DNA of 64,000 nt from a virus (IMGVR_UViG_3300028388_003280:1-64000), one strand, 5' to 3'; positions 4,799-53,120 are shown, counted from the first letter of the stretch. Numbers and translations are program-made. The notes: generated from the letters alone by a model not told the origin.

Positions 4799-5777
4799 TT
4801 TCGCAGAGCAGATCGGAAAAGAAGCGAACCGCGCCCTCGGCCGGCCTGGAATTGCACAAGAAGGTTTTGCCTCCCCCTGGGAGCTCGTCAAGATGCGTGC
4901 AATTCGAGGTACAGCCGCCGCTAAGACTGCTGCTGCATCCTGGCGCCTCCGCGCACCATCCAGCATGCGCAAATACGATATCAAAGAGCGAGGCGTAAAG
5001 AGCGACAAAGCAATCGCCGACGCAGTCGAAAACCAGTTGAAGAAACTGGGAAAGCCTATGAAATTCAAAGATCCAGAAACTGGTATACCTTCGTTTGGGT
5101 ATCGTGTGAAGAGTGTATTTGTTGAAAAGCTTTCAGACTTTGCATATGACTTCTATACGTGGCGCAAGGCTAAGGCGGCATTCAAGCTGGGAGAGTCAAG
5201 AGAAATGAAGCTAACTGATCTAATCACTGAAGGCGAGTTCGGACCTGGCAGCCCAAGTAATCCTGTGCGTGTTCCAAGCCCAGCTTGGAAGGCCAATATG
5301 GGAACCATTGAGAACAAGCGCCGGCCAGAATCGCTGTACATTACCATGTCAACGTGGGTAAAGCCTAAGTTGAGTGTCACCACGGCGTCAGCTCTTGGGT
5401 CGGCCGACCCAGAGGACGTTGCCATTGCTGCAGCTAAGGAGCTCGATGCTGAACTGCGAAGGATGCGGTCTAAGCTGCCTGGATTTTTCAATAGTTTGTA
5501 CTTTGATGTAGACAGCATCATATTTACATACGACTTTGCATACGAGCACGCGGCTCCCGGCAAGGCACAGTTCTTAGAGCTTGAGATCAATGTAGATACG
5601 GTCAACACGATCGATGCAGATGATCGCCCGGCGCCGAATCCGAAGACTGGCAAGGTTGAGATGCTTCACCTTGACGCCTTCAAGAAGCCGGTTGCGGACG
5701 CTGTCGCAAAGATCTTGCAACAGCAGATGTTTGCTCGGTCGGCGAACCTCGACTTTCAGAAGACCAAGAGGCGATAA
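4785..5777 (+). CDS. Unidentified prohead-region protein, 330 aa
   Basis: Start taken at ATG 4785 (MKLGDFAEQIG) because GAGGAG lies seven bases upstream; an ATG further 5' would extend the frame without a ribosome site. It overlaps the previous gene by 14 bases and the protease gene by one. Residues near 140-152 read MKLTDLITEGEFG, containing an L-I-T-E/G sequence of the type cut by T4-like prohead proteases, so it may be a processed core or internal protein. The second half contains alternating strand-like segments and could be a separate domain. No family recognised; head role is inferred from position. Confidence 0.75.
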   Translation: MKLGDFAEQIGKEANRALGRPGIAQEGFASPWELVKMRAIRGTAAAKTAAASWRLRAPSSMRKYDIKERGVKSDKAIADAVENQLKKLGKPMKFKDPETGIPSFGYRVKSVFVEKLSDFAYDFYTWRKAKAAFKLGESREMKLTDLITEGEFGPGSPSNPVRVPSPAWKANMGTIENKRRPESLYITMSTWVKPKLSVTTASALGSADPEDVAIAAAKELDAELRRMRSKLPGFFNSLYFDVDSIIFTYDFAYEHAAPGKAQFLELEINVDTVNTIDADDRPAPNPKTGKVEMLHLDAFKKPVADAVAKILQQQMFARSANLDFQKTKRR

Positions 5778-6376
5778 TGAACAAGCTGGTATTGACAGAG
5801 TGGTGTGAGCTTCAGCTTACGCCTGAAGTCATTGAGGAGGCGAAGACCTCCTCAGGGCCTCTCGTTCTCTCCAACAAGGTCCTGCAGCGTGCCAACACAA
5901 AGAATCACAACGGCCGAATTTACCCGGCCGAAATCCTCATGCGTGAGGTCAAGAAGTATTCACAACTCGTCAATGAGCGTAGAGCCATTGGTGAGCTCGA
6001 CCACCCCGATAGCCCCGTCGTTGAATTGAAGAACGCAGCACTGCTCGTTACTGAGATTCACATGGAGGGCGACGAGGTTCGGGGTGATGTCGAGGTATTG
6101 AACACACCACAGGGCGAGATCCTCAAGAACTTGGCACTTCAGGGCGTCAAGCTTGGTATCTCCTCGCGTGGTGTTGGTTCACTAAGACAAGAGTCGGACG
6201 GTGATATGGTTCAAGACGATTTTGAGCTGATTGCCTTCGACGCGGTTTCGTCACCATCAACGCCAGGCGCATACCTAGTGACCGAGGGTAAGCTGAATCA
6301 GGTTGACAGATATAACGACCTCAGAAGCGTCCTGTATGACATCAATGGCGAAGACTACTTCGGTGGTCACCGATAA
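5777..6376 (+). CDS. 21: Prohead core maturation protease (gp21-like)
   Basis: Serine protease that degrades the scaffold and trims capsid and internal proteins during head maturation, cutting after [LI]-x-E in T4. 199 residues (T4: 212). The herpesvirus-assemblin-like core is visible: ELDHP with catalytic His76, GISSRGVGS with the nucleophile Ser129 or Ser130, and FDAVSSPST (about 154-162) near the C-terminus. It sits between the portal and scaffold genes in T4 order and starts on the last base of the preceding stop codon. Its presence makes the [LIV]-x-E sites seen elsewhere in the window meaningful. Confidence 0.93.
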   Translation: MNKLVLTEWCELQLTPEVIEEAKTSSGPLVLSNKVLQRANTKNHNGRIYPAEILMREVKKYSQLVNERRAIGELDHPDSPVVELKNAALLVTEIHMEGDEVRGDVEVLNTPQGEILKNLALQGVKLGISSRGVGSLRQESDGDMVQDDFELIAFDAVSSPSTPGAYLVTEGKLNQVDRYNDLRSVLYDINGEDYFGGHR

Positions 6377-6397: not shown

Positions 6398-7723
6398 ATG
6401 AGCAAGAAGAAGGACATCGTCAAAGATGCATTGCTTACGGCCAGGGACCTGGAGATTGCCGCAAAGAGCAATGCCCAGGACGTCGTCATTGAGGCGTTCA
6501 CCCCTCGGCTAACCGATGTCATCCGTCAGACTCTAGCTGAGGAGGGCCCAGGCCCACAGCTTGATGATCCCGTTACCGACCTCGCCAAGGGTGAGGAAGA
6601 AGAGACCGAGTCATCTGAGGTCCAGAATGATGGACAGGTTTCTGACGGACACCCAGAGAGCATCACACCTGATGCAGGTGAAAATGAACTCAGGGGTAAG
6701 GGAAAGAAGCACAAGCTAGATCGCCCAGCTCCCGCTCCCGGTCAGATGACCGAGGAAGAGGACGAGGACATGGATCTCGACATGGTTGACGAGGACGAAG
6801 ATATGGACCTCGACGATCTTGACGATGAGATGGAAGAGGGCTACGGCAAAAAGAAGAAGATGAAGGAAGATGATGGCCGCGATGTTGGAAAGCAGCCCGG
6901 CTACACTCCCCGTGATGGTGGCGTAGACCACGATGAGACCAAGCTTGACGAGTCGGATGACATGGAAGATGAAATGGACATGGACGACGATGATGAACTC
7001 GAGCTTGAAATGGATGACCTTGAGGATGACGGTGAAATGGATTCCGTCGATCCTGAAGACGACGTCTTCGAAGCTGACGAAGACGGTGAAGACGAGGAAC
7101 TCGAGATTCCTGACGAGCTATTCGACGACGTAGACGATCAGGACGTCGAGGGTGCCGAGGACATGGACGAAGAGCCCATGGACGATGAAGAGCCCGAGAT
7201 GGAAGAAGACGAGGAACTCGACCTAGATGTTGTCGACGATGAAGCAGACATGGACATGGACGACATGGGTGACGAGGACATGATGGAGGATGGCCTGTAT
7301 GTTCGCAAGGAAGGCGAATTCCAGAAGGTCGATCCTGCTGATGCCCTTGAGTCACGAATCAATGACCTCGAAGAAGAGAGGGAGAAGTTGGCCAACGCCG
7401 TTGGCACCCTGCGTGGACAGCTTGGCGAAGTGAACTTGTTCAACGCTAAGATGTCACATCTTGTGAAGCTCTACGAGTCAGGATGGTTCAGCACCCGCGA
7501 GAAGCGTCGCATTGCTGAGCGTCTAGATCGTTGCAGCTCGATCAAGCAGGTCAAGGCAGTGTACAAGAATATCGTAGGTGAAGCACAGGACCGCACGGTT
7601 CTGGACGACATCCACGATACGATCACTGAATCACGCGTCCGTCGCAGTTCAAAGCCAACGGGCGAAGCAGTATACGAGTCTGACGAAGTGCGCAGAATGC
7701 GCCGCATCGCAGGCATCGAATAA
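6398..7723 (+). CDS. 22: Prohead core scaffolding protein (gp22-like)
   Basis: Internal scaffold around which the capsid assembles, then degraded by the gp21-type protease. 441 residues, much longer than T4 gp22 (269). Residues about 120-310 form a highly acidic run of D, E and M with repeats such as DEDMDLDD. The C-terminal part has a coiled coil (about 315-345) followed by a segment including NLFNAKMSHLVKLYESG that resembles the conserved C-terminus of gp22-like scaffolds. RQTLAE/EG near residues 44-51 is a possible cleavage site. AGGAG lies ten bases upstream of the ATG. Assignment rests on position, composition and the C-terminal resemblance. Confidence 0.87.
   Translation: MSKKKDIVKDALLTARDLEIAAKSNAQDVVIEAFTPRLTDVIRQTLAEEGPGPQLDDPVTDLAKGEEEETESSEVQNDGQVSDGHPESITPDAGENELRGKGKKHKLDRPAPAPGQMTEEEDEDMDLDMVDEDEDMDLDDLDDEMEEGYGKKKKMKEDDGRDVGKQPGYTPRDGGVDHDETKLDESDDMEDEMDMDDDDELELEMDDLEDDGEMDSVDPEDDVFEADEDGEDEELEIPDELFDDVDDQDVEGAEDMDEEPMDDEEPEMEEDEELDLDVVDDEADMDMDDMGDEDMMEDGLYVRKEGEFQKVDPADALESRINDLEEEREKLANAVGTLRGQLGEVNLFNAKMSHLVKLYESGWFSTREKRRIAERLDRCSSIKQVKAVYKNIVGEAQDRTVLDDIHDTITESRVRRSSKPTGEAVYESDEVRRMRRIAGIE
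6755..7290 (+). repeat. Low-complexity acidic (D/E/M) coding repeat
   Basis: Degenerate tandem repetition of GAY/GAR/ATG codons inside the scaffold gene encodes blocks such as MDMDDD and DEDEE. The complementary strand shows long Arg/Pro/His-rich open frames only because of this bias; they are not genes. Confidence 0.7.
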
Positions 7724-7748: not shown

Positions 7749-9245
7749 ATGAGTGAACTTCTACGTAGCGGTCAGGTTGGTAACATCCAGCTCCGCACAC
7801 TACAAGAGCAGAGAGGCCTTGTTGTTGATCGCTGGGAGAAGACCGGTCTTCTCGAGGGCCTTAAGGGTTCGCAGCGCAGCAACGTTGCGCAGCTCCTCGA
7901 GAACCAGGCAGGTTATCTCGCCGAGTCAACTCAGACCGCAGACGTCCAGGGATTCGACATCGTCGCCTTCCCAATGGTTCGCCGCGTGTTCTCGCGTCTA
8001 CTCGCTAACGAGATCGTCAGCGTTCAGCCAATGAGCCTTCCTACCGGCCTGATCTTCTACATCGATCATCAGGTTGAGACTTCACCGGGCAGTGGTAGCT
8101 ACACATCTGTGTATGACCTCCACTACAACAACGGTGGCTACAACAACGCCAAGGGCGCTGCTACTACCGTTCAGGAATCTGTTACGGGCGCTGTTTCAAA
8201 CAACGTCGCCGTGATGCCGTACTCTGGTGGTGTCGAAGGCCTAACCAGCCTTAGCGTCATCGGTTACTCCGGTGTCACCGTTGCAGGCTCGGACTCGGGT
8301 AGCAGCATCGACTACGTCATCAACCCACAGACCTGGACCGAGGATCTATTCCGCCAGAACCAGGTCAGCATCACCGTGCCCGACACGATGACACAGGATG
8401 ATGGCAATACTGGTGCGGTTAACTACGTCCGCGCCCAGTGGGAGAGCTACGAGGATCTTGAGGCTAACTCAGGAATGGGTCAGGTCAAGCTCACGGTCAG
8501 CTCTGTCACCGTACAGGTCGCTAGCCGTAAGCTCAAGGCCGTCTGGACGCCCGAGCTCGCGCAGGATCTCGCCGCTTATCACAGCGTCGACGCCGAGGCT
8601 GAGCTCACTGCTCTCCTTTCTGAGGAGCTTGCAGCTGAGATCGACCGTGAGATCATCCGCGACCTCATCGCCGTCGCTCCGTTCGAGCTAACCTGGAACT
8701 ACAGCCGTACAGCTGTTGCTCAGGACTCTGCTGGACGCACCATTGCAGGCGACCCTGCATCTGGCTACGTCACGCAGAAGGAATGGAACCAGACCCTTCT
8801 TACCGCTATCAACAAGGTCTCTGCTGAGATCCACAAGCGCTCGCTCCGTGGCGGCGCCAACTGGATCGTCTGCTCGACTGAGGTTGGTTCGGTCATCGAC
8901 GACATCGAGAAGTTCCACGGTGTCAACGATGCAGAGGCTCAGGAGTTCAACATGGGTATCGAGCAGCTTGGTACGCTCGGTGTGAGGTACAAGGTCTACA
9001 AGGATCCTTACCTCCCACAGAACATCTGCCTGCTCGGGCACAAGGGTAGCAACTTCATGGATACCGGATACGTGTACGCCCCGTACATCCCGTTCCAGCT
9101 CACCCCTGCTGTCCTTGATCCGGATGACTTCACTCCGCGTAAGGGTATCATGACCCGCTACGCGAAGAAGGTCGTCAACAACAAGTACTTCGGTCTTGTT
9201 CGGGTCAACTTCCCTGACACCTACGACGTCATCAACAACCTCTAA
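7749..9245 (+). CDS. 23: Major capsid protein (gp23-like)
   Basis: Forms the hexamers of the head shell. 498 residues (T4: 521). An N-terminal propeptide ends in GYLAE/STQT, so the expected gp21-type cut is after Glu59, comparable to Glu65 in T4. The following FDIVAFPMVRRVFSRLLAN and VSVQPMSLPTGLIFYID (starting about residue 69) are the conserved P-domain entry of gp23-type proteins, and ASRKLKAVWTPELAQDLAAY (about 259-278) is another family block. AGGAG precedes the ATG by nine bases. A strong terminator lies 30 bases after the stop, as expected for the most abundant product. Confidence 0.96.
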   Translation: MSELLRSGQVGNIQLRTLQEQRGLVVDRWEKTGLLEGLKGSQRSNVAQLLENQAGYLAESTQTADVQGFDIVAFPMVRRVFSRLLANEIVSVQPMSLPTGLIFYIDHQVETSPGSGSYTSVYDLHYNNGGYNNAKGAATTVQESVTGAVSNNVAVMPYSGGVEGLTSLSVIGYSGVTVAGSDSGSSIDYVINPQTWTEDLFRQNQVSITVPDTMTQDDGNTGAVNYVRAQWESYEDLEANSGMGQVKLTVSSVTVQVASRKLKAVWTPELAQDLAAYHSVDAEAELTALLSEELAAEIDREIIRDLIAVAPFELTWNYSRTAVAQDSAGRTIAGDPASGYVTQKEWNQTLLTAINKVSAEIHKRSLRGGANWIVCSTEVGSVIDDIEKFHGVNDAEAQEFNMGIEQLGTLGVRYKVYKDPYLPQNICLLGHKGSNFMDTGYVYAPYIPFQLTPAVLDPDDFTPRKGIMTRYAKKVVNNKYFGLVRVNFPDTYDVINNL

Positions 9246-14513: not shown

Positions 14514-14852
14514 ATGAGGCGATCAGAACTACGACGAATGATCCGTGAGGAGGTGTCGGCTTACCGCCGACGCCGACTCAATGAGCTTAACATCAAGGAC
14601 AAGCTTGAGATCAAGGCAGCAGTCGGAGCAATGAAGATCGCCGGCGGAGGATCAATCCCATCGGATATAATCCAAGGTGCTAAGTTGCAAGCTGACGAAG
14701 CCAACAAGTATAAGGATGATCCAGAACAGCTGGCAAAGCGTCTGAGGAATGCGGGACACAGCGACAAAGATGTCAAGAAGGCCACATCAAACCCAGCAAA
14801 GTATGCTGAGATGGCCACGGCACTCTATGATGCGCTGAAGAACGCAGGTTAA
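14514..14852 (+). CDS. Putative head-internal protein with MRRSELRRMIREE leader, 112 aa
   Basis: Start at ATG 14514 has GGAAG at the right distance; the frame can also open at GTG 14469. The first 24 residues match the leader peptide shared by a set of proteins at 37-46 kb, ending in L-N-E (22-24), an expected prohead-protease site. The rest is helical and lysine/alanine-rich with alternating charges (LAKRLRNAGHSDKDVKKATS). I infer packaging in the head like the T4 internal proteins. It lies alone between sheath and tail assembly genes and is followed by a strong terminator. Confidence 0.7.
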   Translation: MRRSELRRMIREEVSAYRRRRLNELNIKDKLEIKAAVGAMKIAGGGSIPSDIIQGAKLQADEANKYKDDPEQLAKRLRNAGHSDKDVKKATSNPAKYAEMATALYDALKNAG

Positions 14853-36879: not shown

Positions 36880-37052
36880 AGACGATCACTGTAGCAGACG
36901 TACGATACATCGTCATTCGTGAGCTCGGCACTGACTCAGAAGCAGCATCGCGGATCCGCTCCACTCACGGTGGCGCCTTGATCCGTAACAGCAAGGACAA
37001 CACGTTCATGCTGTGTCAACGTATTGGGGAAGCAGAGTATGAAGAAGTCTGA
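36876..37052 (+). CDS. Small 58 aa protein after the deaminase
   Basis: ATG 36876 overlaps the deaminase stop (ATGA) and the frame ends at TGA 37052, overlapping the next gene by 14 bases. The peptide reads MKTITVADVRYIVIREL... and continues with a basic turn and NTFMLCQRIGEAEYEEV. The helix-first layout and the V-R-x-[IL]-[VI]-R-E-L element distantly recall the leader peptide of the following genes, so it may be a diverged member. Not otherwise recognised. Confidence 0.55.
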   Translation: MKTITVADVRYIVIRELGTDSEAASRIRSTHGGALIRNSKDNTFMLCQRIGEAEYEEV

Positions 37053-37320
37053 ACTGCGACAAATGATCCGCGAAGAATACCACCGCGCAACGGTAAATGA
37101 GGCGGTTGCCAAGCGCGCCAAGCAAATGCTGGCTCTCCGTAAGGAAATGGTCAAGCATCTCAACGCTTTCGACAGGGCCCATAGCAAGCTTGATGGTTAT
37201 ATTGAGCTAAGAGATGAAAAGGTCATCCGCAAGCTTGAAATGATCGAGAAGCGCGTGAACGACATCTTCGAGTATCTCGGGGATGTTGAAGATCTATTGC
37301 AGCAAATCGAGGAAGATTGA
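37039..37320 (+). CDS. Putative head-internal protein with MKKSELRQMIREE leader, 93 aa
   Basis: First of a run of genes with the shared leader. Residues 1-13 match the leader consensus and V-N-E/A (19-21) gives a probable prohead-protease site, leaving a 72-residue helical product (AVAKRAKQMLALRKEMVKHL...) likely to form a coiled coil. Start ATG 37039 is preceded by GGGGAAG; an upstream start would add five residues and hide the leader. Packaging into the capsid is inferred by analogy with T4 internal proteins. Confidence 0.75.
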   Translation: MKKSELRQMIREEYHRATVNEAVAKRAKQMLALRKEMVKHLNAFDRAHSKLDGYIELRDEKVIRKLEMIEKRVNDIFEYLGDVEDLLQQIEED

Positions 37321-37604
37321 TGAAGAAGAGCGAACTACGGCAGATCATCCGTGAAGAGATCAAGCGAGCCATCAACGAGAACGAGTGGGCTCCCGTCGAG
37401 AAGTGGCTCCGGTCATCATCCAATCGTAAGAAGCTAGCACAGCGAGTCAAGGATTCAGTTCTTCCAGGCGATGCAGCTTTTGGCGCGGACCCAATGGACT
37501 GGGGAATTCCGGGTTGGCTTGATTGGATCGAGTCAGACTACAACACCCAGCAGTATCTGCAGAGCATTGGACTTGACATTCCAGGAAGGCCGAACCGACC
37601 ATGA
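37320..37604 (+). CDS. Putative head-internal protein with MKKSELRQIIREE leader, 94 aa
   Basis: ATG 37320 shares its A with the previous stop and has GAGGAAG upstream; TTG 37317 would add one Met. The leader is followed by I-N-E (18-20), the expected cleavage site. The mature part carries NEWAPVEKWLRSSSNRKKLA and a C-terminal segment rich in W, D and P (DPMDWGIPGWLDWIESD). It looks like a small folded domain, not recognised. It overlaps the next gene by 4 bases. Confidence 0.75.
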   Translation: MKKSELRQIIREEIKRAINENEWAPVEKWLRSSSNRKKLAQRVKDSVLPGDAAFGADPMDWGIPGWLDWIESDYNTQQYLQSIGLDIPGRPNRP

Positions 37605-37921
37605 AAATTTCCAAGCACACACTCCGCTCCCTAATTCACGAGTGCATCAACGAGATGCACGATGAAATGCAGGAAGCCAAGGGCGACAAGAAGTTCGTCA
37701 TCTACTACAAGAAGAAGAACGGTAAGGATGCCAAGACTACTGTGATGGCTCAGGACAAGGATGATGCCATGGCTATGGCTCGACGCAAGCTTGCTGGCCG
37801 TTACTACGACCTCTTCGGCGCTCGCGAGCTGGATGAAATGACAACCACAGGAGATGTGGCCGGATATGACGCACCGATGGGCACAAAGCTTACTGACCTC
37901 ATCGATGATGAGGATGATTGA
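37601..37921 (+). CDS. Putative head-internal protein with diverged leader, 106 aa
   Basis: The N-terminus MKISKHTLRSLIHECINE is a diverged version of the shared leader (L-R-x-L-I-x-E) ending in I-N-E (16-18). A beta-rich segment (KKFVIYYKKKNGKDAKTTVM) follows, then a helix (DDAMAMARRKLAG). The C-terminus TTTGDVAGYDAPMGTK with a DDEDD tail resembles end motifs of small proteins in marine T4-like phages. Function unknown; head location inferred. Confidence 0.72.
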   Translation: MKISKHTLRSLIHECINEMHDEMQEAKGDKKFVIYYKKKNGKDAKTTVMAQDKDDAMAMARRKLAGRYYDLFGARELDEMTTTGDVAGYDAPMGTKLTDLIDDEDD

Positions 37922-37937
37922 GGCGCTTCGGCGCCTC
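37920..37937 (+). other. TTCG hairpin between small gene and peptidase gene
   Basis: GAGGCGC-TTCG-GCGCCTC, a perfect 7-bp stem in the 34-base gap, without a T tract. It may be a weak or factor-dependent terminator or an mRNA-stabilising structure. Confidence 0.5.
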
Positions 37938-37955
37938 TTCCGGCGAAGAGGAACA

Positions 37956-38462
37956 ATGCAGGTACCAACGGATCCACGACACCAGCTGTCTCAGAATTTC
38001 ACACTAGGTGAAATGCTCAAGAGTCAGACAGCGACCCGCAAGGGTATTGACAACACACCGGACCTCGAGCAGTTCAAGAACCTTCAGGCTCTGTGTCAGA
38101 ATGTTCTTCAGCCAGTACGGGGCATCTATGGCGTTCCGCTGATCGTCACATCAGGACTTCGTGTCCTCGAGCTCAACCGTGCAATTGGTTCATGGGACGG
38201 ATCGCAACATACCAAGGGTGAGGCAGCTGATTTTGAACCGCTCGGAAACATCGCACTAGAAGATCTATGGCGCTCGATCGTCCTCAGCGACATCCCATAC
38301 GACCAGTGCATTCTCGAGTTCCCACCCACTGGCTGGATCCACATCTCCCACAAGCGTGATGGAGATCAGCGCGGCAAGATCACCGTTGCCCGTAAGGTTG
38401 ACGGTAAGACCCGCTACGACCACTACACTCGTGAGCAGGTAGAACAATTTGATTGGGAGTGA
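37956..38462 (+). CDS. M15-type peptidase (putative endolysin)
   Basis: Zinc peptidase of the M15A/YcbK-like group, which cuts peptide cross-links of peptidoglycan. 168 residues. Zinc ligands His85 and Asp92 lie in SQHTKGEAAD, and His129 in GWIHIS; SGLRVLELNRAIG (66-78) is the conserved preceding block. No signal peptide or cell-wall-binding repeat, so release would need a holin, or it could act from the virion. The tail spike protein lacks a lysozyme domain, making this the best wall-degrading candidate in the window. Start ATG 37956 with GAGG upstream. Confidence 0.85.
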   Translation: MQVPTDPRHQLSQNFTLGEMLKSQTATRKGIDNTPDLEQFKNLQALCQNVLQPVRGIYGVPLIVTSGLRVLELNRAIGSWDGSQHTKGEAADFEPLGNIALEDLWRSIVLSDIPYDQCILEFPPTGWIHISHKRDGDQRGKITVARKVDGKTRYDHYTREQVEQFDWE

Positions 38463-38465
38463 CCA

Positions 38466-39848
38466 TTGAAGGCACGCTATCACAAATTTACTGGTGAGGT
38501 TCCAGTTGTCTTCGTCGAGGACGCCAAGGCTTTCATGGAAAAGCTTGGTGCTCCCGTAACTGAGGCAAAGGACCGTTTCGGCGTCGAACTCATGCATGAG
38601 GTCAATATTGGCCCACTCAAGATGCTCGTGTTCAGTGAAGCAATGCTGCGTACCATTTCTGGTTCCCGCCCAACACCCGTGATCGAGGCCCACCTTGCGA
38701 TCTGGAAGGGCCAGCAGAAGTATCCACAGAACGAGATCGCTGGGTTCAAGTACGCGCTCGCTCTAGCTGAGCGGTACAAGCGGAAGAAGTGCCACGAGTT
38801 GATCCGTCGAACCATGGCAGAAGCAACGGGCTATCACGCGGAGCCGATGGAGGTGGAGATCGTTGGTCAGCGCAAGGCTGTTTCCGACAAGAAGGTCGAG
38901 AGTGTCCTTTTTGAAGAGGGCATCCTCCTTGAGATGGGCAACACCAACCGCATCGACGTCAACGAAATCTACCTAGGCTACTATATGCTTGGTGGGACGT
39001 GGACGGGCTTCGTGAAGGCAGCCGATGCAAAGGCCCAGCTTAGGAAGCGCCGCGAAGAAATCACGCCCGAGGAGTTTAAGGATGAGCAGGGTAAGGCCAA
39101 GGTCATGGCACGCGAAGCTCTGAATTGGGCTCAGGCAAACGGATATGGTGGCGGCGTCAAGAAGGCTTGGTGGACCGCGCGTCCGGGTGACCTTTCAAAG
39201 GCAACAGGCCTAGATGTTTCATCTGCTGCGAACCCAACAGACACACTAGTCCAGTTTGGCGACGGCAAGTTCCTAGGGTTGAGTGCGAAGTCTGGTAAGA
39301 AGAAGAGCAGCAAGATCGCATTCAAGAACCCAGGCATGGGAACGATCGACAATGCACTCAATGCCGGTCTGCAGGCCGTGTTTAGTCGCGAGATTGACAA
39401 ATTCATCAAGAAGCATGATCTCTCCCCAGTAGCTGCCACCCGTAAGACTCAGATCCGCGATGACAGAAAGATCGAGTCTGAAGCAAACAAGGCTGGTTCT
39501 GTTGTCCACAAGAAGCTCAGAGATGAGCTATTCAAGACTCTCAACAAGCTGAACGAGAAGGCCCTGAAGGAACATGTCCTGTCTTATTGGATGGACGCGA
39601 ATGTTGTTGAGCCACCGTACATCAAAGTAACTGGCAAGGGTTCGGGTGGAGACTATACAGCCTCAGTTATGAATCCCCTCAACAATGAGAAGCTGACTGC
39701 AATTAGCCATGGCAATTATGAGCTCAAGAAGGTCGGCGACAATTCAATCGGCTTCATGGCTGATGGGAAGCGTGTCTTCAAGATGCGCTTCAAATTCTCG
39801 TCGCAGTTCATGGCCTCAAGCATGAAGCTTAGCGGTGACCAATGGTAA
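38466..39848 (+). CDS. Nuclease-like protein (possible PD-(D/E)XK fold), 460 aa
   Basis: TTG start three bases after the peptidase stop. A helix with VNEIYLGYYML (165-175) precedes a core where Asp259 (NPTDTLVQ) and Lys275 (LGLSAKSGK) are spaced like the D...(D/E/S)xK of restriction-type nucleases; KIAFKNPGMGT (283-293) follows as in phage proteins with this arrangement. Residues 1-60 contain a V-T-E/A sequence (31-33) that could be a processing site. The C-terminus (about 395-460) is beta-rich. Nuclease activity is an inference from spacing; catalysis is unproven and the family is unnamed. Confidence 0.6.
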   Translation: MKARYHKFTGEVPVVFVEDAKAFMEKLGAPVTEAKDRFGVELMHEVNIGPLKMLVFSEAMLRTISGSRPTPVIEAHLAIWKGQQKYPQNEIAGFKYALALAERYKRKKCHELIRRTMAEATGYHAEPMEVEIVGQRKAVSDKKVESVLFEEGILLEMGNTNRIDVNEIYLGYYMLGGTWTGFVKAADAKAQLRKRREEITPEEFKDEQGKAKVMAREALNWAQANGYGGGVKKAWWTARPGDLSKATGLDVSSAANPTDTLVQFGDGKFLGLSAKSGKKKSSKIAFKNPGMGTIDNALNAGLQAVFSREIDKFIKKHDLSPVAATRKTQIRDDRKIESEANKAGSVVHKKLRDELFKTLNKLNEKALKEHVLSYWMDANVVEPPYIKVTGKGSGGDYTASVMNPLNNEKLTAISHGNYELKKVGDNSIGFMADGKRVFKMRFKFSSQFMASSMKLSGDQW

Positions 39849-39859
39849 GGAGCACTAAG

Positions 39860-40165
39860 ATGAGAGAGAAGAAGAGACTATTAGAGAACGCAGGCCTCGA
39901 TGCCAAGCGAATTCTTTCAGAGGCTGACACTGTGGACTTCGAGTTCGACCTCGATGAGCCCGAGGACTGGGCTGCTATGGAGGCTGAACTGAAGGACGCC
40001 GGGGCCAAGATCAAGAAGAAGTGGAGTCGCGGTACCCGAGACTACATTACGGTTGAGATTCCAACCGACGCTCGCAAGCGTGCAGACCTATTTCACTGGG
40101 TCGCGAATTTCTACTACCAGGGCGACCGTAAGGACGCAGCATACGAATTTCCCGAGTTGACCTGA
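39860..40165 (+). CDS. Small acidic protein, 101 aa, before the NMNAT/ligase fusion
   Basis: AAGGAG precedes ATG 39860 by eight bases; ATG 39842 lacks a site and overlaps the previous gene. N-terminal REKKRLLENAGLDAKRILSE (2-21) ends in L-S-E/A, again a prohead-protease-like site, then an acidic linker (VDFEFDLDEPEDW) and an alpha/beta domain with RDYITVEIPTD. Unrecognised. It shares one base with the next start. Confidence 0.68.
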   Translation: MREKKRLLENAGLDAKRILSEADTVDFEFDLDEPEDWAAMEAELKDAGAKIKKKWSRGTRDYITVEIPTDARKRADLFHWVANFYYQGDRKDAAYEFPELT

Positions 40166-42012
40166 TGCCAAAACTAGTCGTCGTATTCTACGGCAGATTT
40201 CAGCCACCCCACCTGGGGCACATCGAGACGTATAAGGACCTGGCCAAGAAGTTCGGGTCCAAAAACGTGTACGTGGCGACATCTGATAAGACCGATCCTG
40301 ATCGCAGCCCGCTGCCGTTCAAGGTGAAGACTAAGCTGCTGCAGAACCTAGGCATTCCGGCGAGTCAGATTCTGAAGACTCGCCGAAACTACAATGCCGA
40401 CGAGATCAAGCAGGTGCTTGGTTTGAGAGACTTCTCTGACTTCATCTTCGTGGTGGCGGTCGGTGAGAAGGATGCTTCACGACTAGGCGGTGGGAAGTTC
40501 TTCCAGGAGTTCCCGAGATCAAAGAAAGACCTCCAGACTGCAGATCAGACTGGATACTACTTTGTCCGCCGCGGCAAGATGCGAAGTGCAACAAAGCTCC
40601 GTGATGTCTTGCGTCAGGATGAGCTCAGCGCGCAGGACCTCAAGTTCCTGATGCAGCAGACCGGTCTCAAGAAGCGGGGTGTGATGCAATTGAAGAAGCT
40701 CGTCGAACATCAACAGCGTAAGAAGACCTGGGGTGCACTACTTAACGGTCAGGCTGCACTACTTAGCGAGGGTGGTGCTGGTGGGCATATGCTCCACCCA
40801 TTTGAAGACCTCACTATGTCGTTTGGTGAGATGAAGAGCATCATCGAGGCCTCTTTCGACGGACAGCTCGACGTCGTCGCTAGCAAGGGCGGTGGTGACG
40901 TCCGCGAAAAGACTGACGGACAGAACCTGTTCGCAACGGTCATTGATGGTAAGGTCCGGTTCGCACGTAACAAGACACACCTCCGTAACCGTGGCCGCAA
41001 TGCCATGTCTATCAAGGACATCCAGACGAAGTGGGCAGACAAGCCAGACATCCAGGCTGCATTCCTTGATGGCGGCCGTGCATTGAAGAAGGGGTTTGAG
41101 TCCCTGCCGCAAAAGGTACAGGACGAGATCTTTGGAAACGGTGAGCGCTGGATCAACTTTGAGGTCATTTCACAGAAGAACCCCAACGTCATCAACTACG
41201 ACAAGGACCTGATTGTCTTCCACGATATCCAGGTCGTCGACATCAACGGAACTGTGACTGGTGTTGCAGCAAAGCAGTCTGCCAAGCTGTACAAGATCTT
41301 CGCAGATGCCGAGAAGCAGGCCGAGACCAAGATCCCCATCCAGCCCCCACCGTATGTCCGTGCCGCTACAGACATGAACCTCGACTTCGGACCTGAGAAG
41401 TACCGCTTCCTAGCAGACATTGACCGCTTCGCCAAGAAGTACGGCCTAGGGGACAGTGACACAGTGGGGGATGCGATGGTCACAGCGTGGAATCGCATGC
41501 TGGATGGTGTCGAGGACAAGTACACGGTCACCATCCCACCCGCACTTCGCCAAAAGCTCATCCAGCGCTTCGTCTATGGCAACAAGGCCTATCGTATCAC
41601 ATCGTTGCCAAAGGATCTTCCTGATGCTGCAGCCATCGACGCCATCAAGTCTATGGACAAGAGCTCGAGGGACATCAACAAGAGCATCATGGAGCCGCTA
41701 GAGCTCACTATCTTGGCATTTGGTACTGAGCTGTTGACGGCCATGAAGAAGTTCATCGCGGCGTCGCCTGAAAAGAGCGCCGCGAAGCTCAAGGCCGACA
41801 TCGACAAGCAGATCGCCACGATCCGCAAGTCCAAGAACGCTGAAGACATTGCCCGCATGGAAGTCATGCTCAAGAAGATCCAGGCTGCAGGCGGTTTCGA
41901 CAAGCTTGTTCCGTCTGAGGGACTTGTCTTCCGCTACAAGGGCAAGATCATCAAGATCACTGGCCTGTTCGCGCCAGTAAATCAACTCATGGGAATCGGG
42001 AGGTTCGGATGA
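40165..42012 (+). CDS. Bifunctional NMNAT-like nucleotidylyltransferase / ATP-dependent ligase-like protein
   Basis: 615 residues with two enzyme modules. The N-terminal one (1-155) is a cytidylyltransferase fold: GRFQPPHLGH (10-19) with the HxGH motif and SATKLRDVL (141-149) for the ISSTxxR-type motif, as in NMN adenylyltransferases. The second (about 205-615) shows covalent nucleotidyltransferase motifs: KTDG (249-252, motif I with Lys249), NFE (331-333), EGLVF (585-589, motif IV) and KGKIIKI (592-597 region, motif V). Between them lies LLSE/GGAGGHMLHPFEDLT (199-214), a possible processing site. Substrates are unknown; NAD salvage and RNA repair are both reasonable. Confidence 0.75.
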   Translation: MPKLVVVFYGRFQPPHLGHIETYKDLAKKFGSKNVYVATSDKTDPDRSPLPFKVKTKLLQNLGIPASQILKTRRNYNADEIKQVLGLRDFSDFIFVVAVGEKDASRLGGGKFFQEFPRSKKDLQTADQTGYYFVRRGKMRSATKLRDVLRQDELSAQDLKFLMQQTGLKKRGVMQLKKLVEHQQRKKTWGALLNGQAALLSEGGAGGHMLHPFEDLTMSFGEMKSIIEASFDGQLDVVASKGGGDVREKTDGQNLFATVIDGKVRFARNKTHLRNRGRNAMSIKDIQTKWADKPDIQAAFLDGGRALKKGFESLPQKVQDEIFGNGERWINFEVISQKNPNVINYDKDLIVFHDIQVVDINGTVTGVAAKQSAKLYKIFADAEKQAETKIPIQPPPYVRAATDMNLDFGPEKYRFLADIDRFAKKYGLGDSDTVGDAMVTAWNRMLDGVEDKYTVTIPPALRQKLIQRFVYGNKAYRITSLPKDLPDAAAIDAIKSMDKSSRDINKSIMEPLELTILAFGTELLTAMKKFIAASPEKSAAKLKADIDKQIATIRKSKNAEDIARMEVMLKKIQAAGGFDKLVPSEGLVFRYKGKIIKITGLFAPVNQLMGIGRFG

Positions 42013-42302
42013 GCAAGTATAAGCAGAGAATCAACGAGCTCGCGGGAACGGTCCGCGAAAGTTCTGGCAGTGCAAACCTCGAGCGTGTGCTCAAGAAGCT
42101 TGAAAAGAAGGGCGTGATGAAGTCTGGAGATATCCAGTATGTGCTCAGCAATGTATGGGCTGTTGAGCCTCGCAGCGTTGCGGACATGGACGATTTCCTC
42201 AATGGTGGCACTATTGGTGATGAGCCACAATGGCCAGCTGAGGAAATCTTTAAGGCATACAGGCGAGACGTCAAGGCCTCAACGCGTCGCCCAAAGTACT
42301 AG
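42009..42302 (+). CDS. Small protein, 97 aa, after the ligase fusion
   Basis: Overlaps the previous stop by 4 bases. It starts MSKYKQRINELAG, where I-N-E (8-10) is a potential protease site, although the upstream part is shorter than the usual leader. Residues 20-60 are helical with a positively charged face (NLERVLKKLEKKG). No family. Followed directly by a GTATTTA box. Confidence 0.68.
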   Translation: MSKYKQRINELAGTVRESSGSANLERVLKKLEKKGVMKSGDIQYVLSNVWAVEPRSVADMDDFLNGGTIGDEPQWPAEEIFKAYRRDVKASTRRPKY

Positions 42303-42303
42303 G

Positions 42304-42310
42304 GTATTTA
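42304..42310 (+). promoter_or_regulatory. GTATTTA box upstream of gene at 42316
   Basis: AGGGTATTTAAACC begins two bases after the previous stop and only five bases before the next ATG. If it is a promoter -10 element, that mRNA would be leaderless or start translation at a later codon. Confidence 0.4.
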
Positions 42311-42315
42311 AACCT

Positions 42316-42528
42316 ATGAACCTTATCCAACGAGCACTATTTGAGCGAATGATCGACGGCGACCCTCAGATCCGCGAGCTATTTGAGGACTACGTCCGTA
42401 AGATGGGTCACAAGGATGAAGAGGCTTTGCAGATCGTCGAGTCGATCATCGCCGATGGTAAGAAGATTCTCAACGAAGATATGGACTTGGCTTCTATGGC
42501 CAAGATGGACAAGAGGAATGTGCTATGA
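42316..42528 (+). CDS. Small helical protein, 70 aa
   Basis: ATG 42316 is the first in-frame start after the previous gene's stop; no convincing ribosome site precedes it. Almost entirely helical and acidic (MNLIQRALFERMIDGDPQIR...), with K-I-L-N-E-D near the C-terminus. It overlaps the next leader-type gene by 4 bases. Unknown function; probably part of the same virion-protein block. Confidence 0.6.
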   Translation: MNLIQRALFERMIDGDPQIRELFEDYVRKMGHKDEEALQIVESIIADGKKILNEDMDLASMAKMDKRNVL

Positions 42529-42935
42529 AGATTAGTGCACTACGAAAGATGATTCGTGAAGAGGTCCGCTCTGCGGTCCGCGCCGAGTTGAAGGCTGCAC
42601 TCAATGAGTCAGCCTCCCGCCCTGCTCCTCAGAAGCAATCAGGCGAGGGTCTAGATGCCCTCCGGGCCCGCTTCAAGCAGTCGCAGCAGGGCAGTCTTAC
42701 TGAGATGTATGACGGCTTGGAGGGAAGCAAGCCAAAGGGTCGATCGAACGCATCCGAGCCTGACAACCCCCGCGAGCTTCTTGAAAATGGAGAACCGTTC
42801 GCATCTGGGGCGGGTTTGCTTGAGTGGTTCAAAGAGTCGAAGGATGAAGCTGCCTTGGCTCAGCATGAGCAAGCGCTTGCTAAGCAGGCCAAAACTGACG
42901 AATACGTCAAGAATCTAATGGGGGGAAATCGATGA
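42525..42935 (+). CDS. Putative head-internal protein with MKISALRKMIREE leader, 136 aa
   Basis: The leader runs to AALNE/SA, with L-N-E at 26-28. The mature part is low in predicted structure at first (ASRPAPQKQSGEGLDALRAR) and then helical with a Lys/Ala-rich end. Small, charged and partly disordered, like T4 internal proteins. It overlaps both neighbours by 4 bases. Confidence 0.75.
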   Translation: MKISALRKMIREEVRSAVRAELKAALNESASRPAPQKQSGEGLDALRARFKQSQQGSLTEMYDGLEGSKPKGRSNASEPDNPRELLENGEPFASGAGLLEWFKESKDEAALAQHEQALAKQAKTDEYVKNLMGGNR

Positions 42936-43213
42936 AGCGTTCGGAGTTACGACAACTAATTCGCGAGGAGCTTGATCGCTCCATGGTGAGCGAGGCCAAG
43001 CTGCCTAAGCCTAAGTTCCTTACGAAGGACTGGTACAACAAGGCCTTCGCAGACTATGATGCAATTGAGCAGGCTGTTGGCAGCGAAGACTCTCGTGGAA
43101 ATTGGGGTCACGACCCCGACGTTCAGCGGCAGTTCGATTTGGTTGCAGACGCACTCAACAGTCTTGACACTCGCTGGAAGAAGCTACTCAGAATGGCAGC
43201 AAAGGTTCAATAA
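42932..43213 (+). CDS. Putative head-internal protein with MKRSELRQLIREE leader, 93 aa
   Basis: The leader ends in V-S-E/A (19-21). The rest (KLPKPKFLTKDWYNKAFADY then DAIEQAVGSEDSR) has a basic, Pro-containing linker and a helical domain. GGGGGAAA is weakly SD-like upstream. One-base overlap with the next gene. Function unknown; packaging inferred. Confidence 0.75.
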   Translation: MKRSELRQLIREELDRSMVSEAKLPKPKFLTKDWYNKAFADYDAIEQAVGSEDSRGNWGHDPDVQRQFDLVADALNSLDTRWKKLLRMAAKVQ

Positions 43214-43551
43214 TGAAGAAGTCAGAACTACGACAGCTGATCCGTGAAGAGATTGAGGCCATCAATGAGATCAGTTTCAAGAATGCAATTCAAGCAATTG
43301 GGGCCAATCTCACCGGGCCAATCAAGAAGAAGCTGGCCAAGCCCGGGAGTGTGTGGCTAAACGGCCGGTCAGCAGATCCCGATGTTGATGATATGTGGGG
43401 CGGAATGAACAAGCGTGGCAAGATCGCGGTATTTGCCGACAAGACTGCAGCCAAGATTTGGGCCACCTCTGACCTTGACCGGGCCGGGACTTCTGAATGG
43501 TACAAGTACGTGAAAGCACATCCAATGCACAAGATGATTGGAAAGAAATAA
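43213..43551 (+). CDS. Putative head-internal protein with MKKSELRQLIREE leader, 112 aa
   Basis: This copy carries the consensus leader exactly, followed by I-N-E/I (17-19). The mature protein has a helix (FKNAIQAIGANLTGPIKKKL), then a strand-rich part (GSVWLNGRSADPD, KIAVFADKTAAKIWA) suggesting a small folded domain. Not recognised. It begins on the last base of the previous stop. Confidence 0.75.
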   Translation: MKKSELRQLIREEIEAINEISFKNAIQAIGANLTGPIKKKLAKPGSVWLNGRSADPDVDDMWGGMNKRGKIAVFADKTAAKIWATSDLDRAGTSEWYKYVKAHPMHKMIGKK

Positions 43552-43566
43552 CACATAGGTTACAAC

Positions 43567-44310
43567 ATGCCAGCAAAGAGTAAGAATCAACAGCAGGCCG
43601 CAGGTCAAGCTCTCGCCGCAAAACGTGGTGAGCTAGCTGTTTCTAAGCTTCAGGGTGCCGCCAAGGACATGTACGACAGCATGTCTGAGAAGGAGCTCGA
43701 GAAGTTCGCCAAGACTAAGCACGATGGCTTGCCGGACAAGGTCGAAGAGGGCGCCGGAGACATGCGCCTCCTAAAGGTTGCCGTCAAGCGGGGCGCCAAC
43801 GCAGCAAAGGCCAAGAAGAAGCGATCGCCATTGATGGATCCGAAGTTCATCAAGATGATTGACCTACCAGGCGCCCGCCCTGGCAAAGACTCGCCATACT
43901 TCAAGGCGTGGCTGAAGGGGTTTGATATGGAACGTATGAACGAAGTGCGACAGATCGTCCGAGAGATGATCCTTGAAGAGCTTAGTGAAGGTAAGCCCGA
44001 GTTCGAGGTCAAGTATGCTAAGAGCAAGAGTGGTCCGATCAAGGTCACAAAGTTCATGACCAAGGAAGAAGCTTTTGAATTCCTTGCCAAGATGAAAGCA
44101 GACGGCTTCAACGGAATCGTTTCGCGCGCCGGTAAGCCGATCAAGGAATCTAGGCTCAACGAGAACGAGGACCACATCCACCAGGCGATCGCCGAGGCAC
44201 TCAAGGGCGTCAAGGATTCAAAGGGTCGTCCGGTTCGCTATGCAATTGAGACGGTCGCAAAGGGCAACCGTGGTGAGATCAAGGTTAGCGTGTACGGATC
44301 TATTGACTGA
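43567..44310 (+). CDS. DUF3008-type protein with internal leader-like segment, 247 aa
   Basis: Residues 1-57 (MPAKSKNQQQAAGQALAAKR, KLQGAAKDMYDSMSEKELEK, FAKTKHDGLP) match DUF3008, a short domain also found as free bacterial proteins. After a basic region comes MERMNEVRQIVREMILEELS then E/G (about 120-140), closely resembling the shared leader but in mid-protein, with L-S-E/G as a potential cut site; a second R-L-N-E/N follows near residue 197. The C-terminal part is alpha/beta. It could be a polyprotein-like precursor cut into two or three pieces in the prohead. Confidence 0.72.
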   Translation: MPAKSKNQQQAAGQALAAKRGELAVSKLQGAAKDMYDSMSEKELEKFAKTKHDGLPDKVEEGAGDMRLLKVAVKRGANAAKAKKKRSPLMDPKFIKMIDLPGARPGKDSPYFKAWLKGFDMERMNEVRQIVREMILEELSEGKPEFEVKYAKSKSGPIKVTKFMTKEEAFEFLAKMKADGFNGIVSRAGKPIKESRLNENEDHIHQAIAEALKGVKDSKGRPVRYAIETVAKGNRGEIKVSVYGSID

Positions 44311-45704
44311 TGGCAGAATATCAGGGCAAGAAGGTAGAGTTGAACAAGCCGATCCGTGGAGGGTCGAAGAAGTTTTACGTCTATGTGAAGAATGATAAGG
44401 GCAACGTGGTCAAAGTCAGCTTCGGTGACCCGAACACTGACATCAAGAGAGACGACCCTGATCGCCGTTCAAACTTCCGCGCCCGCCACAACTGTGACGA
44501 CCCTGGCCCGAAGTGGAAAGCTAGATATTGGAGCTGCAAAATGTGGGGCAAGAAAAACGTATCTGATCTAACTGAGGAAGATCGCATGAAGGGTGAAGAC
44601 CCATGCTGGGACGACTACGAGATGGTCGGCAAGAAAATGAAGGATGGAAAAGAAGTGCCTAACTGTGTTCCAAAGAACGAAGCTGCTGGTAAGCACACCC
44701 GCCGCGGCCGCAGAGAGCGTAACAAGGCTCGCACTAAGGCAAAGGCCAACCGCCTCTCACCTAAGAAGATGGGCAGCAAGCCCGTCTCACGCCTTAAGAA
44801 AGAGGCACAGGGAGACTGGACCACCTTTGGCGATCTCCCCATCGGCGCCAAGTTCCGCTTCACTGAAGAAGACGCGGACATGTACACCAAGGTGAGTGAC
44901 ACGCACTTCCGTAACCGCAATGGCAAGAGCTACCGTGAAGAGCCAACCGTTGACGTGATTCAGCAAGAGGGACGCCTGGCAGAGTCTGACACCAGGGGTT
45001 GGGATCCTGAGCTCCTGAAGATTGCACGTAAGTTTGACCGTGACGAAGTTAACCTAGGCATCAAGATTGAGAAGGAGCATGACGAGGATCCAGCAACGGA
45101 CGTCGTCAAGGACAAGAACGACCTCCTCAAGATCGCACTGGCACACCTCGAAGAGGATCCAGAGTATTACACGCATCTAGTTGACATGGAGTCGAAGTTT
45201 GAGGACACCGATGAGGCGTATTCACCATCCGAGTATCCACAGTCCCGTGATCCGTATAACGATGACTCGACAATCCCAGGCACACATCAGAGTCAGACGG
45301 GCGCAATGCCCCGTGGTTTCCGCAACCGCAAACGTGGTAAGGTGGATCATAAGCCCCTCGGCCGCGAACGACCGAGGTTGAAGGAGCAATTCTTTGGTCG
45401 TAACCATGAGCGCGTGATGCGGTCAGCTGGATTGTTGAATGAATCGATGAGTCGCTGGTGCATGTTCTACAAGGCAAAGAACGGTGACTGGTATATGGAG
45501 CTTGCACCAAATGAATATGGCGATCAGCGGGATGCCACCACATACGGGCCGTTTAGTAGCATGGACGAAGCAGACGAATACCTCAGCCGGAATTTCTCAA
45601 ATCCGGGTTCCATGCACGTCGATTCCTCCGGCACGAAGCCGGTGCCGAAGAAAAGTCCTAGCGGACGACCAGTTCAGTCGCCAAATAGGCGAGGGTACTA
45701 CTAA
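44310..45704 (+). CDS. Multi-domain phage protein with RARHNC...YWSC motif, 464 aa
   Basis: Residues about 1-80 hold a domain widespread in marine T4-like phages: GKKVELNKPIRGGSKKFYVY, then VKVSFGDPN, FRARHNC and KARYWSC, where the cysteines could bind zinc. A basic segment (HTRRGRRERNKARTKAKANR, about 129-148) follows, then acidic linkers. Near residue 376 SAGLLNE/SMSRW repeats the L-N-E site, followed by a compact C-terminal domain (WCMFYKAKNGDWYMELAPNE, YGPFSSMDEADEYL). Domain functions are unknown. The site again suggests processing and virion location. Confidence 0.7.
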   Translation: MAEYQGKKVELNKPIRGGSKKFYVYVKNDKGNVVKVSFGDPNTDIKRDDPDRRSNFRARHNCDDPGPKWKARYWSCKMWGKKNVSDLTEEDRMKGEDPCWDDYEMVGKKMKDGKEVPNCVPKNEAAGKHTRRGRRERNKARTKAKANRLSPKKMGSKPVSRLKKEAQGDWTTFGDLPIGAKFRFTEEDADMYTKVSDTHFRNRNGKSYREEPTVDVIQQEGRLAESDTRGWDPELLKIARKFDRDEVNLGIKIEKEHDEDPATDVVKDKNDLLKIALAHLEEDPEYYTHLVDMESKFEDTDEAYSPSEYPQSRDPYNDDSTIPGTHQSQTGAMPRGFRNRKRGKVDHKPLGRERPRLKEQFFGRNHERVMRSAGLLNESMSRWCMFYKAKNGDWYMELAPNEYGDQRDATTYGPFSSMDEADEYLSRNFSNPGSMHVDSSGTKPVPKKSPSGRPVQSPNRRGYY

Positions 45705-46180
45705 TGAAGAAGTCAGAGATCCGCCAGCTGATCCGAGAAGAGATTCAACGGCTGGATGAGGCAAGCTTCGTCAAGGGTAGGGGTGCAACGGGAAAGATCG
45801 AGCTCGAACGAGACCAGTCCCCAGCTGGTCATGGCTACAGCATCAACATTAACGGCGCCTGGGGCGGATTTTGGCCTGATGATCCTAGAGATGCAGCTGT
45901 AGTTGAGATGGCGATGGTCGATGATGGCACCGAATATGGTGAAAGCCCAATCGTACATAATATAGAACCAAAGCTTCTCTACATGCATGTACTACGGCGC
46001 CTAAAGGCAGCGGGTTTGCGCAGGGTCATCAACGCGATCCGCAAGGCAGCAAAAGTTCAGCCTAATAGTCCAATTAGGCAAAGCGGCGGCGTTCGCCTTC
46101 GCGCTCTTGTCAGACCAAGCCTAAAGGGTCCGGTCCGGTTCGTCGAGTACGACTGGGGAAGATTCGAGTTCAAGCTGTAA
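45704..46180 (+). CDS. Putative head-internal protein with MKKSEIRQLIREE leader, 158 aa
   Basis: Last of the leader-bearing genes. The leader ends in L-D-E/A (17-19). The mature part is a beta-rich domain (GKIELERDQSPAGHGYSI, NGAWGGFWPDDPRDAAVVEM) followed by a basic helical tail (LRRLKAAGLRRVINAIRKAA). Unknown function. It begins on the previous stop's last base and is followed by a TGTRCA-type promoter that opens the glycosyltransferase island. Confidence 0.75.
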   Translation: MKKSEIRQLIREEIQRLDEASFVKGRGATGKIELERDQSPAGHGYSININGAWGGFWPDDPRDAAVVEMAMVDDGTEYGESPIVHNIEPKLLYMHVLRRLKAAGLRRVINAIRKAAKVQPNSPIRQSGGVRLRALVRPSLKGPVRFVEYDWGRFEFKL

Positions 46181-47425: not shown

Positions 47426-48079
47426 ATGGAGTATCGCATGATGCGATTCGACGATGCCACTATCGAGAAAGTCATCACTTCGTGGCAGTCGCTTATCAAG
47501 CAGGTTGAGGATGATGACCTCGCCCGCAAGCTTGAGGTTTTCCTCAACGACAATGCAGATCAGTTCTTCACTGTCCCCGCCTCACCGTCTGTCAATTATG
47601 CTGCAGCCCACAACTGCATGCCTGGTGGTTTGGCTGAGCATACCCTCCGTGTGTATCGCAACTTCCACAAGCTTGTTCATGAGCACATGGACATGTTCGA
47701 CCACCCGGTGTCCGAGGACGACATCCTCGTCGCAGCCATGTTCCACGACATGGGCAAGATGGGTGACACACACAACCCATACTATCTTGAGCAGGACTCT
47801 GATTGGCACCGCCGCAGGGGCATGTTCTACCAGATGAATCCTGACATTGATTACATGCGTGTCCAGCATAGGTCTCTGTATCTCATGCAGCTCTATGGAA
47901 TCAAGGCCCCACTGCACGTGTTCAAGGCAGTGATGCTTCATGACGGCATGCACGACGAGTCGAACAAGCACTATTCCATGAAGGAGGGCCTGTTCGCACA
48001 ATTGCTCGCCCACGCCGATGTCATGGCAGCCGTTTGGGAACAGAAGCGTTACAATGACTGGCTTAGTGGGCTTGAATAG
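47426..48079 (+). CDS. HD-domain phosphohydrolase
   Basis: 217 residues. Metal-binding HD residues are visible: GGLAEHTLRVYRN (His72) and AAMFHDMGKMG (His107/Asp108), with later HRRRG, QHRSL and HADVM elements. HD proteins hydrolyse phosphate esters, including nucleotides and cyclic dinucleotides; the substrate cannot be told here. GGAGG lies upstream. In a phage it could act in nucleotide scavenging or against nucleotide second-messenger defences, both inferred. It has its own promoter candidate. Confidence 0.85.
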   Translation: MEYRMMRFDDATIEKVITSWQSLIKQVEDDDLARKLEVFLNDNADQFFTVPASPSVNYAAAHNCMPGGLAEHTLRVYRNFHKLVHEHMDMFDHPVSEDDILVAAMFHDMGKMGDTHNPYYLEQDSDWHRRRGMFYQMNPDIDYMRVQHRSLYLMQLYGIKAPLHVFKAVMLHDGMHDESNKHYSMKEGLFAQLLAHADVMAAVWEQKRYNDWLSGLE

Positions 48080-48110
48080 TGCCTAAATCCTTAAACTGCA
48101 ATTTTGTCCA

Positions 48111-48138: not shown

Positions 48139-48170
48139 AAGAAATTTGGGCTAAAGGAGTTCAAAAACAC

Positions 48171-52506: not shown

Positions 52507-52507
52507 C

Positions 52508-53119: not shown

Positions 53120-53120
53120 G

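Follow-up and report, generated by a model that had tools for sequence, protein, structure and literature searches.

Here, we analysed a stretch of DNA from an uncultured, T4-like phage (IMGVR_UViG_3300028388_003280). The stretch, hereafter the window, comprises bases 1-64000 of a 118,196-bp virus record. Several small proteins encoded in the window open with nearly the same peptide, followed by a putative [LIV]-x-E cleavage site. We think it very likely that this N-terminal leader is a capsid-targeting propeptide. It would be similar to the capsid-targeting sequence (CTS) of phage T4, with a leader sequence of its own and larger sets of cargo. Sequence comparison establishes the leader, the site behind it, conservation at the protein level, a matching site in the capsid protein, co-occurrence with a prohead protease and the exchange of leaders between homologues. 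The first-pass annotation had proposed a set of head-packaged proteins ejected with the DNA. That interpretation is supported as the best available.

A conserved leader peptide precedes a putative cleavage site

The leader has the consensus M-[KR]-[KR]-S-E-L-R-Q-[LMI]-I-R-E-E. This peptide, or a diverged form, is found at the N-terminus of eight genes in the window and nine in the record. With start codons translated, the N-termini are MRRSELRRMIREE (14514), MKKSELRQMIREE (37039), MKKSELRQIIREE (37320), MKRSELRQLIREE (42932), MKKSELRQLIREE (43213) and MKKSEIRQLIREE (45704). Genes 42525 (MKISALRKMIREE) and 37601 (MKISKHTLRSLIHEC) have diverged. The ninth copy, MRKSELRQMIREE, is at position 103843 of the record, beyond the window. 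Hence, the family described in the first-pass annotation is real, though smaller than the ten or so members suggested. Six of the seven starts described there as near-identical are so and 42525, the least certain member, is diverged. Gene 37601 is the diverged copy that it was taken to be, with a class-2-like leader. The region from 37039 to 46180, presented as one family, contains the leader genes but leaderless genes are interspersed.

The leader score was reached by none of 14,665 shuffled N-termini. In six phage contigs, 46 of 47 leader matches were at an N-terminus. All nine leader genes of the phage have [LIVM]-x-E 6-16 residues behind the leader core; V and M were admitted besides L and I at the first motif position. 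Between residues 13 and 30, the motif occurs in 9/9 leader genes and 44/145 other genes of the phage (Fisher p = 4e-5), which upholds the site as first described. Beyond leader and site, nothing is common to the leader proteins of the phage.

Conservation acts on the peptide, not the DNA. Among seven leader copies, 101 of 205 codon pairs for the same amino acid use differing codons, and 112 are expected for independent draws from the codon usage of the genome. Nucleotide identity between copies is 75% in the leader, 30% in the upstream 30 nucleotides and 25% in the downstream 60 nucleotides. Thus, both earlier observations, that codons vary while the peptide is kept and that the proteins are unrelated behind it, stand.

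Leaders are exchanged on homologous domains

The strongest evidence for the predicted propeptide is leader swapping: from one phage to another, the leader differs on homologous mature domains. We compared the mature part behind each predicted site with all other proteins of the retrieved loci. Among these were 33 homologues that bear no recognised leader; in 19, an [LIVM]-x-E is no more than three residues away from the projected junction. The null, 0.16, is the expectation from elsewhere in the same proteins (binomial p about 8e-8, for pairs that are not fully independent). In a stricter subset, with no leader resemblance at all, the count was 15/27. Where both sides carry a recognised leader, the site is kept in 28 of 34 subjects. 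An earlier test with full-length queries gave ten pairs, eight with the site (null 0.23); this was too restrictive and mature parts were used instead.

Examples are as follows, with a slash marking the predicted cut. Locus L044 has ..EELTTVLKE/QGGYVELIEMDP and the cultured Flavobacterium phage vB_FspM_immuto (hereafter immuto; L301/L293) has MENNFDIHKWQAKFLKESTIQE/QGGYVEVMGPDF, in a gene adjoining that for the protease. Similarly, ..EEIKILLNE/GTRSRIG in L012 corresponds to MRKLIYEQIDKKWNDYILTE/GTRSTIG in L013 and MIKLKSLIRESKLITE/ATRWAVG in L102. Finally, L068 has ..EEIQTLNE/REIISIEKAQDM and L210 has MIKLIDLLNE/KVDITIDKAQEM.

The leaderless gene 44310 is a related case. In five other phages (L097, L125, L179, L055 and L048), its domain is part of a longer protein and stands directly behind a glutamate-ending site (VIEE/, PLEE/, PMKE/, YLGE/ and SLNE/). 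This is expected of pieces excised by a protease. Hence, gene 44310 looks like a processed piece encoded separately.

The leader is widespread and its site recurs

A degenerate pattern for MKKSELRxxIREE matched 83 stretches of IMG/VR contigs, with at most seven per contig. A second leader form, MK[IL]TKxQLxxIIKEE, accounted for more than 120 stretches among the matches listed. In total, 196 retrieved loci contain 501 unique leader proteins; 45 random control loci (342 kb) contain none. The first-pass annotation had suggested that the motif be sought in the rest of the genome and in related phages; the copy at 103843 and these proteins were the outcome. Individual phages have 8-13 N-terminal leader hits (9 in G016, 10 in G025 and 13 in G037).

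The search patterns for the leader did not include [LIVM]-x-E. The site behind the leader is therefore an independent test. Among nonredundant proteins of independent phages, the motif was found in 69/82 of a first set (shuffled mean 15.9, maximum 26) and 92/113 of a second (shuffled mean 28.3, maximum 42). In the following 14 residues, it occurs in just 10/82 and 16/112. Distances between site and core peak at 3-4 and 6-7 residues, with 5 being rare, and hydrophobic residues occupy core positions 4, 7, 8, 12 and 15/16. Together, these spacings point to a single helix face ending at the site.

In the phage collection, neither megablast of the region nor a tblastn search with the leader by itself gave a match; a query of 21-23 residues is too short for significance there. 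GTDB genome contigs yielded no copy of the leader and hence no host assignment, and a literature search found no mention of the peptide.

Immuto, whose host is Flavobacterium sp. LMO8, has three MKKS-type leaders. Neighbouring genes upstream of the terminase gene encode a further N-terminus that recurs, M[AE][DN]xF[ND]LxxFL[TV]ENKLTxNSxLL[KE]E. N-termini in this phage include MKKSELVKLIKEEL.. (immuto35A_175), MKKSQLREIIRKEL.. (176), MKKSQLRQIIKEAL.. (190) and MENFDLKKFLVENKLTTNSKILKE/NS (194); protein 201 has ..STIQE/QGGYVEV. In L011 and L052 (also L029), very short open reading frames are barely longer than the leader: MKKSELRQIIREEIQKLNEARPINIEI and MKKSELRQIIREEIQALNESQPINIDI (27 amino acids). 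Another in this set, MKKSELRQLIREEIQALNEASYSNLK (26 amino acids), is near the protease gene.

The head module encodes a matching protease and capsid site

The head module of the window is of the T4 type and comprises terminase (630), gp20-type portal (2205), protease (5777), an acidic protein in the gp22 position (6398) and capsid protein (7749). The gp21-type protease, placed at 5.8 kb by the first-pass annotation, was confirmed and is the probable processing enzyme (Table 1). The 6398 protein gave no match in a family search and holds several [LIVM]-x-E sites. It may be the core to which leaders bind.

We aligned 24 gp23 homologues from leader phages. In nearly all, one column reads [LIV]-x-E/[AS], just ahead of the mature domain. 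At the T4 gp23 cut position, the cultured phage Mel-JY01 has LISE/A, immuto has IVSE/A and the present phage has YLAE/S. Mature T4 gp23* structures align to the capsid protein from residue 70 on, just downstream of YLAE/S. The capsid sequences indicate the probable specificity of the protease. The protease family phrog_207 was detected in 14/40 and 15/20 leader contigs (29/60 together) but 0/45 random contigs. Among contigs of at least 60 kb, a gp21-type protease is encoded by 19/25 with the leader and 0/9 random ones.

Thus, capsid targeting and cleavage, as first suggested, are supported by four tests, each of which might have gone the other way: a capsid-protein [LIV]-x-E at the T4 gp23 cut position in this phage and 20+ relatives, a leader that accompanies the protease and is not found in random viral contigs, junctions enriched for the site where leaders are swapped, and the 44310 domain.

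Table 1. Positions of leaders, the leaderless gene 44310 and head-module features in the window.
Feature	Position	Strand	Remarks
Leader MRRSELRRMIREEVSAYRRRRLNE, then predicted cut site	14514..14585	+	112-aa protein 14514-14852
Leader MKKSELRQMIREEYHRATVNE, then predicted cut site	37039..37101	+	93-aa protein 37039-37320
Leader MKKSELRQIIREEIKRAINE, then predicted cut site	37320..37379	+	94-aa protein 37320-37604
Diverged, class-2-like leader MKISKHTLRSLIHECINEMHDEMQE, then predicted cut site	37601..37675	+	106-aa protein 37601-37921
Diverged leader MKISALRKMIREEVRSAVRAELKAALNE, then predicted cut site	42525..42608	+	136-aa protein 42525-42935
Leader MKRSELRQLIREELDRSMVSE, then predicted cut site	42932..42994	+	93-aa protein 42932-43213
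Leader MKKSELRQLIREEIEAINE, then predicted cut site	43213..43269	+	112-aa protein 43213-43551
Leader MKKSEIRQLIREEIQRLDE, then predicted cut site	45704..45760	+	158-aa protein 45704-46180
Leaderless protein opening M-AEYQGKKVELNKP (also M-AEYQGKKVELNKPIRGG; M-AEYQGKK)	44310..45704	+	Domain comparison
gp21-type prohead protease, probable processing enzyme	5777..6376	+	phrog_207 E = 5e-48; T4 gp21 structure 5jbl E = 2e-14
Probable scaffold (gp22-position) protein	6398..7723	+	Between protease and capsid genes; acidic repetitive sequence
gp23-type major capsid protein	7749..9245	+	phrog_138 E = 5e-78; T4 gp23* structures E = 7.5e-31
Putative capsid-protein maturation site L57-A-E59/S60 (YLAE/S)	7917..7925	+	Aligned column of gp23 homologues

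The proposed leader system parallels T4 capsid targeting

In T4, IPI, IPII, IPIII and Alt carry the CTS, which gp21 cleaves after L/I-X-E (PMC9026906). Genetic analysis assigned targeting mainly to residues 4 and 7 and processing to residues 8 and 10 (PMC9026906). With D in place of the cleavage-site glutamate, T4 processing is blocked and targeting persists (PMC9026906). The ipII and ipIII products open with MKTYQEFIAE/A and that of ipI with MKTFKEFTSTTTPVSTITE/A (read from NC_000866). In both systems, a short N-terminal propeptide, ending in [LI]-x-E, is found on otherwise unrelated small proteins, and the same genome encodes a gp21-type protease and gp23-type capsid protein. Leader hydrophobic residues 6, 9 and 10, and glutamate 12, have the T4 spacing (4, 7, 8 and 10) shifted by two. 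In architecture, the leaders come closest to the ipI form, which has both a core and a later site. Hence, the sequences give strong support to a leader system that works like the T4 CTS; we do not claim identity with it.

The systems also differ. The leaders comprise 19-28 residues and T4 propeptides 10-19. The sequence is not the same (MKKSELRQLIREE..LNE here, MKTYQEFIAE in T4) and leaders usually have a second, later site. Several leader phages have at least 8-13 copies, compared with three internal proteins in T4. Leader cargo is not basic, and targeting by the leader is predicted from sequence here. Mature parts of the leader proteins in the window showed no homology to T4 internal proteins IPI-IPIII, with no significant Pfam or PHROG family. 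In six phages, T4-type spacing at residues 3-15 was found in 46/1182 non-leader genes and 68/3677 internal control windows. That the T4 CTS and the leaders might bind alike is a lead; common descent is not claimed.

Contig G015 contains repeated 10-residue leaders, MIKL[LT][DN]IL[KFN]E (e.g. MIKLTDILLE and MIKLIDILNE), on unrelated genes. This phage also encodes a gp21-type protease. The register is exactly that of the T4 CTS, and these leaders are half the length of the present leader, ending at the first site. On one homologous cargo, MIKLIDLLNE/ stands in for the long leader (L210 compared with L068). We know of no experimental work on such 10-residue leaders. In the giant phages SPN3US and phiKZ, a gp21-related protease removes N-terminal propeptides of head proteins after glutamate, and targeting of ejection proteins has been inferred (PMC5694885). 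Unlike the leaders, those propeptides are mostly longer than 100 residues, with A-X-E type motifs and no single repeated peptide.

Proposed mechanism and alternatives

We infer core binding, cleavage, packaging and ejection with the DNA. Briefly, the leader would fold into an amphipathic helix, hydrophobic at residues 6, 9, 10, 14 and 17/18, that binds the prohead core during head building. Any protein bearing a leader would, as a result of core binding, be co-packaged. The gp21-type protease would then cut behind [LIV]-x-E at the helix end, so that mature cargo is released within the head. If T4 is a guide, cargo would exit with the DNA at infection.

Several points weigh against this interpretation. 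There is no clear sequence identity between the leader and the T4 CTS, h-x-x-h-h-x-E spacing alone being common to both. The junction site is absent from 14 of the 33 swap pairs, which are not fully independent. The possibility that cargo is basic, as T4 internal proteins are, was not supported; mean net charge per residue is -0.016. The literature search yielded no virion proteome for this phage, nor for any other with the leader, cultured ones included. Finally, six leader contigs of at least 60 kb (five class-2 and one class 1) have no gp21-type protease match. These also lack a gp23 match and so may be fragments, or users of another head system.

It is unlikely, though conceivable, that the protease of the same system cuts inside the core, with I-[RK]-E at positions 10-12 as its site, instead of or besides the later [LIV]-x-E. 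The I-x-E of the core is nearly invariant (I at core position 8 in 494, and E at core position 10 in 496, of 501 leader proteins), and T4 ipII and ipIII products are cut at FIAE/A, right behind the equivalent residues (PMC9026906). However, the core glutamate is followed by another E in 454/501, where capsid sites have A or S. The later site is most often followed by A, G, S, D or N, and homology between swapped cargos often starts there. The following residue and the swap junctions thus favour the later site as the probable cut; cutting at both is possible.

We give appreciably less credence to the leader being a helix that stays uncleaved and docks to some other partner (tail or baseplate, host membrane or host polymerase), on proteins that are not head cargo. 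The predicted amphipathic helix is a common docking element. Furthermore, immuto encodes a similar N-terminus, MKLDLLKKLIKEAVKEAVREEL, immediately upstream of a baseplate gene, and that of the diverged 42525 protein resembles it. However, docking leaves unexplained the [LIV]xE site, its agreement with that for capsid maturation, the association with the protease and swapping at the site. Lastly, there is next to no chance that the 5' ends were repeated by recent duplication, or form an RNA or DNA element (regulatory or a target of recombination), and serve no protein function: copies are near one another and several of the genes overlap, head to tail, but saturated synonymous codons and flanks at chance identity rule this out, and hundreds of distant contigs encode the same peptide with other codons.

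Putative cargo proteins and neighbouring genes

Leader proteins have a median mature length of 81 residues and mostly belong to no known family. Scanning 110 of them matched 15 Pfam families; single proteins match pentapeptide repeats, GNAT acetyltransferase, AAA/zeta-type kinase and a ParB-like nuclease domain. On entry, the internal proteins of T4 act against host defences; IPI inhibits the GmrSD restriction system (PMC9391042). By analogy with IPI and IPIII (PMC9391042), leader cargo may consist of host-takeover or anti-defence effectors. Since only the address, and no function, is common to the proteins, these are probably a set of different effectors.

For the mature part of the 14514 protein, scans of the collections gave no close relative; the only homologue, among loci already retrieved, is in L074. 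The site is kept there, as ..AINE/LSLKDKL, and the linker length differs. For the 45704 protein, the leader part alone is matched by four other viral loci and the remainder has no close relative. A single-sequence AlphaFold model of this protein, with the leader as helix 3-22, was too poor for use (mean predicted local distance difference test score 37.6). The 37601 protein has a second site, LDE/MTTTGDVAGY, close to its C-terminus. The C-terminal segment of 37601-37921, LDE/MTTTGDVAGYDAPM, recurs behind [LI]DE in L302, L303 and L304, and similar segments occur in protease-neighbouring genes of Mel-JY01 and immuto. Possibly, this segment is a conserved core peptide freed by the protease.

Elsewhere in the window, 40165-42012 encodes a 615-amino-acid nucleotidyltransferase-like protein. 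It lacks the short N-terminal helix (e.g. MSKLATQLIQELLEDTG) of homologues in Mel-JY01, L210, L054 and L055. A run of genes at 47426-57320 resembles those for glycosyltransferases, methyltransferases and an aminotransferase-like protein. Beyond the window, in G000, adjacent genes 72179, 72952 and 73587 open with MSTWHDVFREYRRRLNES, MTDYHQMHRNWRAHLVEAS and MSQRDDIRRALQEAGD. These N-termini differ from one another, yet end in [LIV]-x-E or L-x-E. The three proteins are candidates for further cargo with another leader.

Implications

For most phages, sequence does not allow prediction of the injected proteins. An address label that is recognisable and cleavable would reduce that prediction to a text search. 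We lean towards the view that leaders are an exchangeable packaging code, used by a large and mostly uncultured group of T4-like phages, so that a gene becomes injected cargo on acquiring any of a few types of leader. With the match to the capsid site, and with leader exchange, the T4 targeting rule could also be tested in phages other than T4, such as a cultured phage of Flavobacterium. As leader proteins are mostly without a known family, the 501 unique proteins can serve directly as a catalogue of candidate injected effectors. If the proposal is true, the leader code would list the injected effectors of phages that have never been grown, most of them without a known family.

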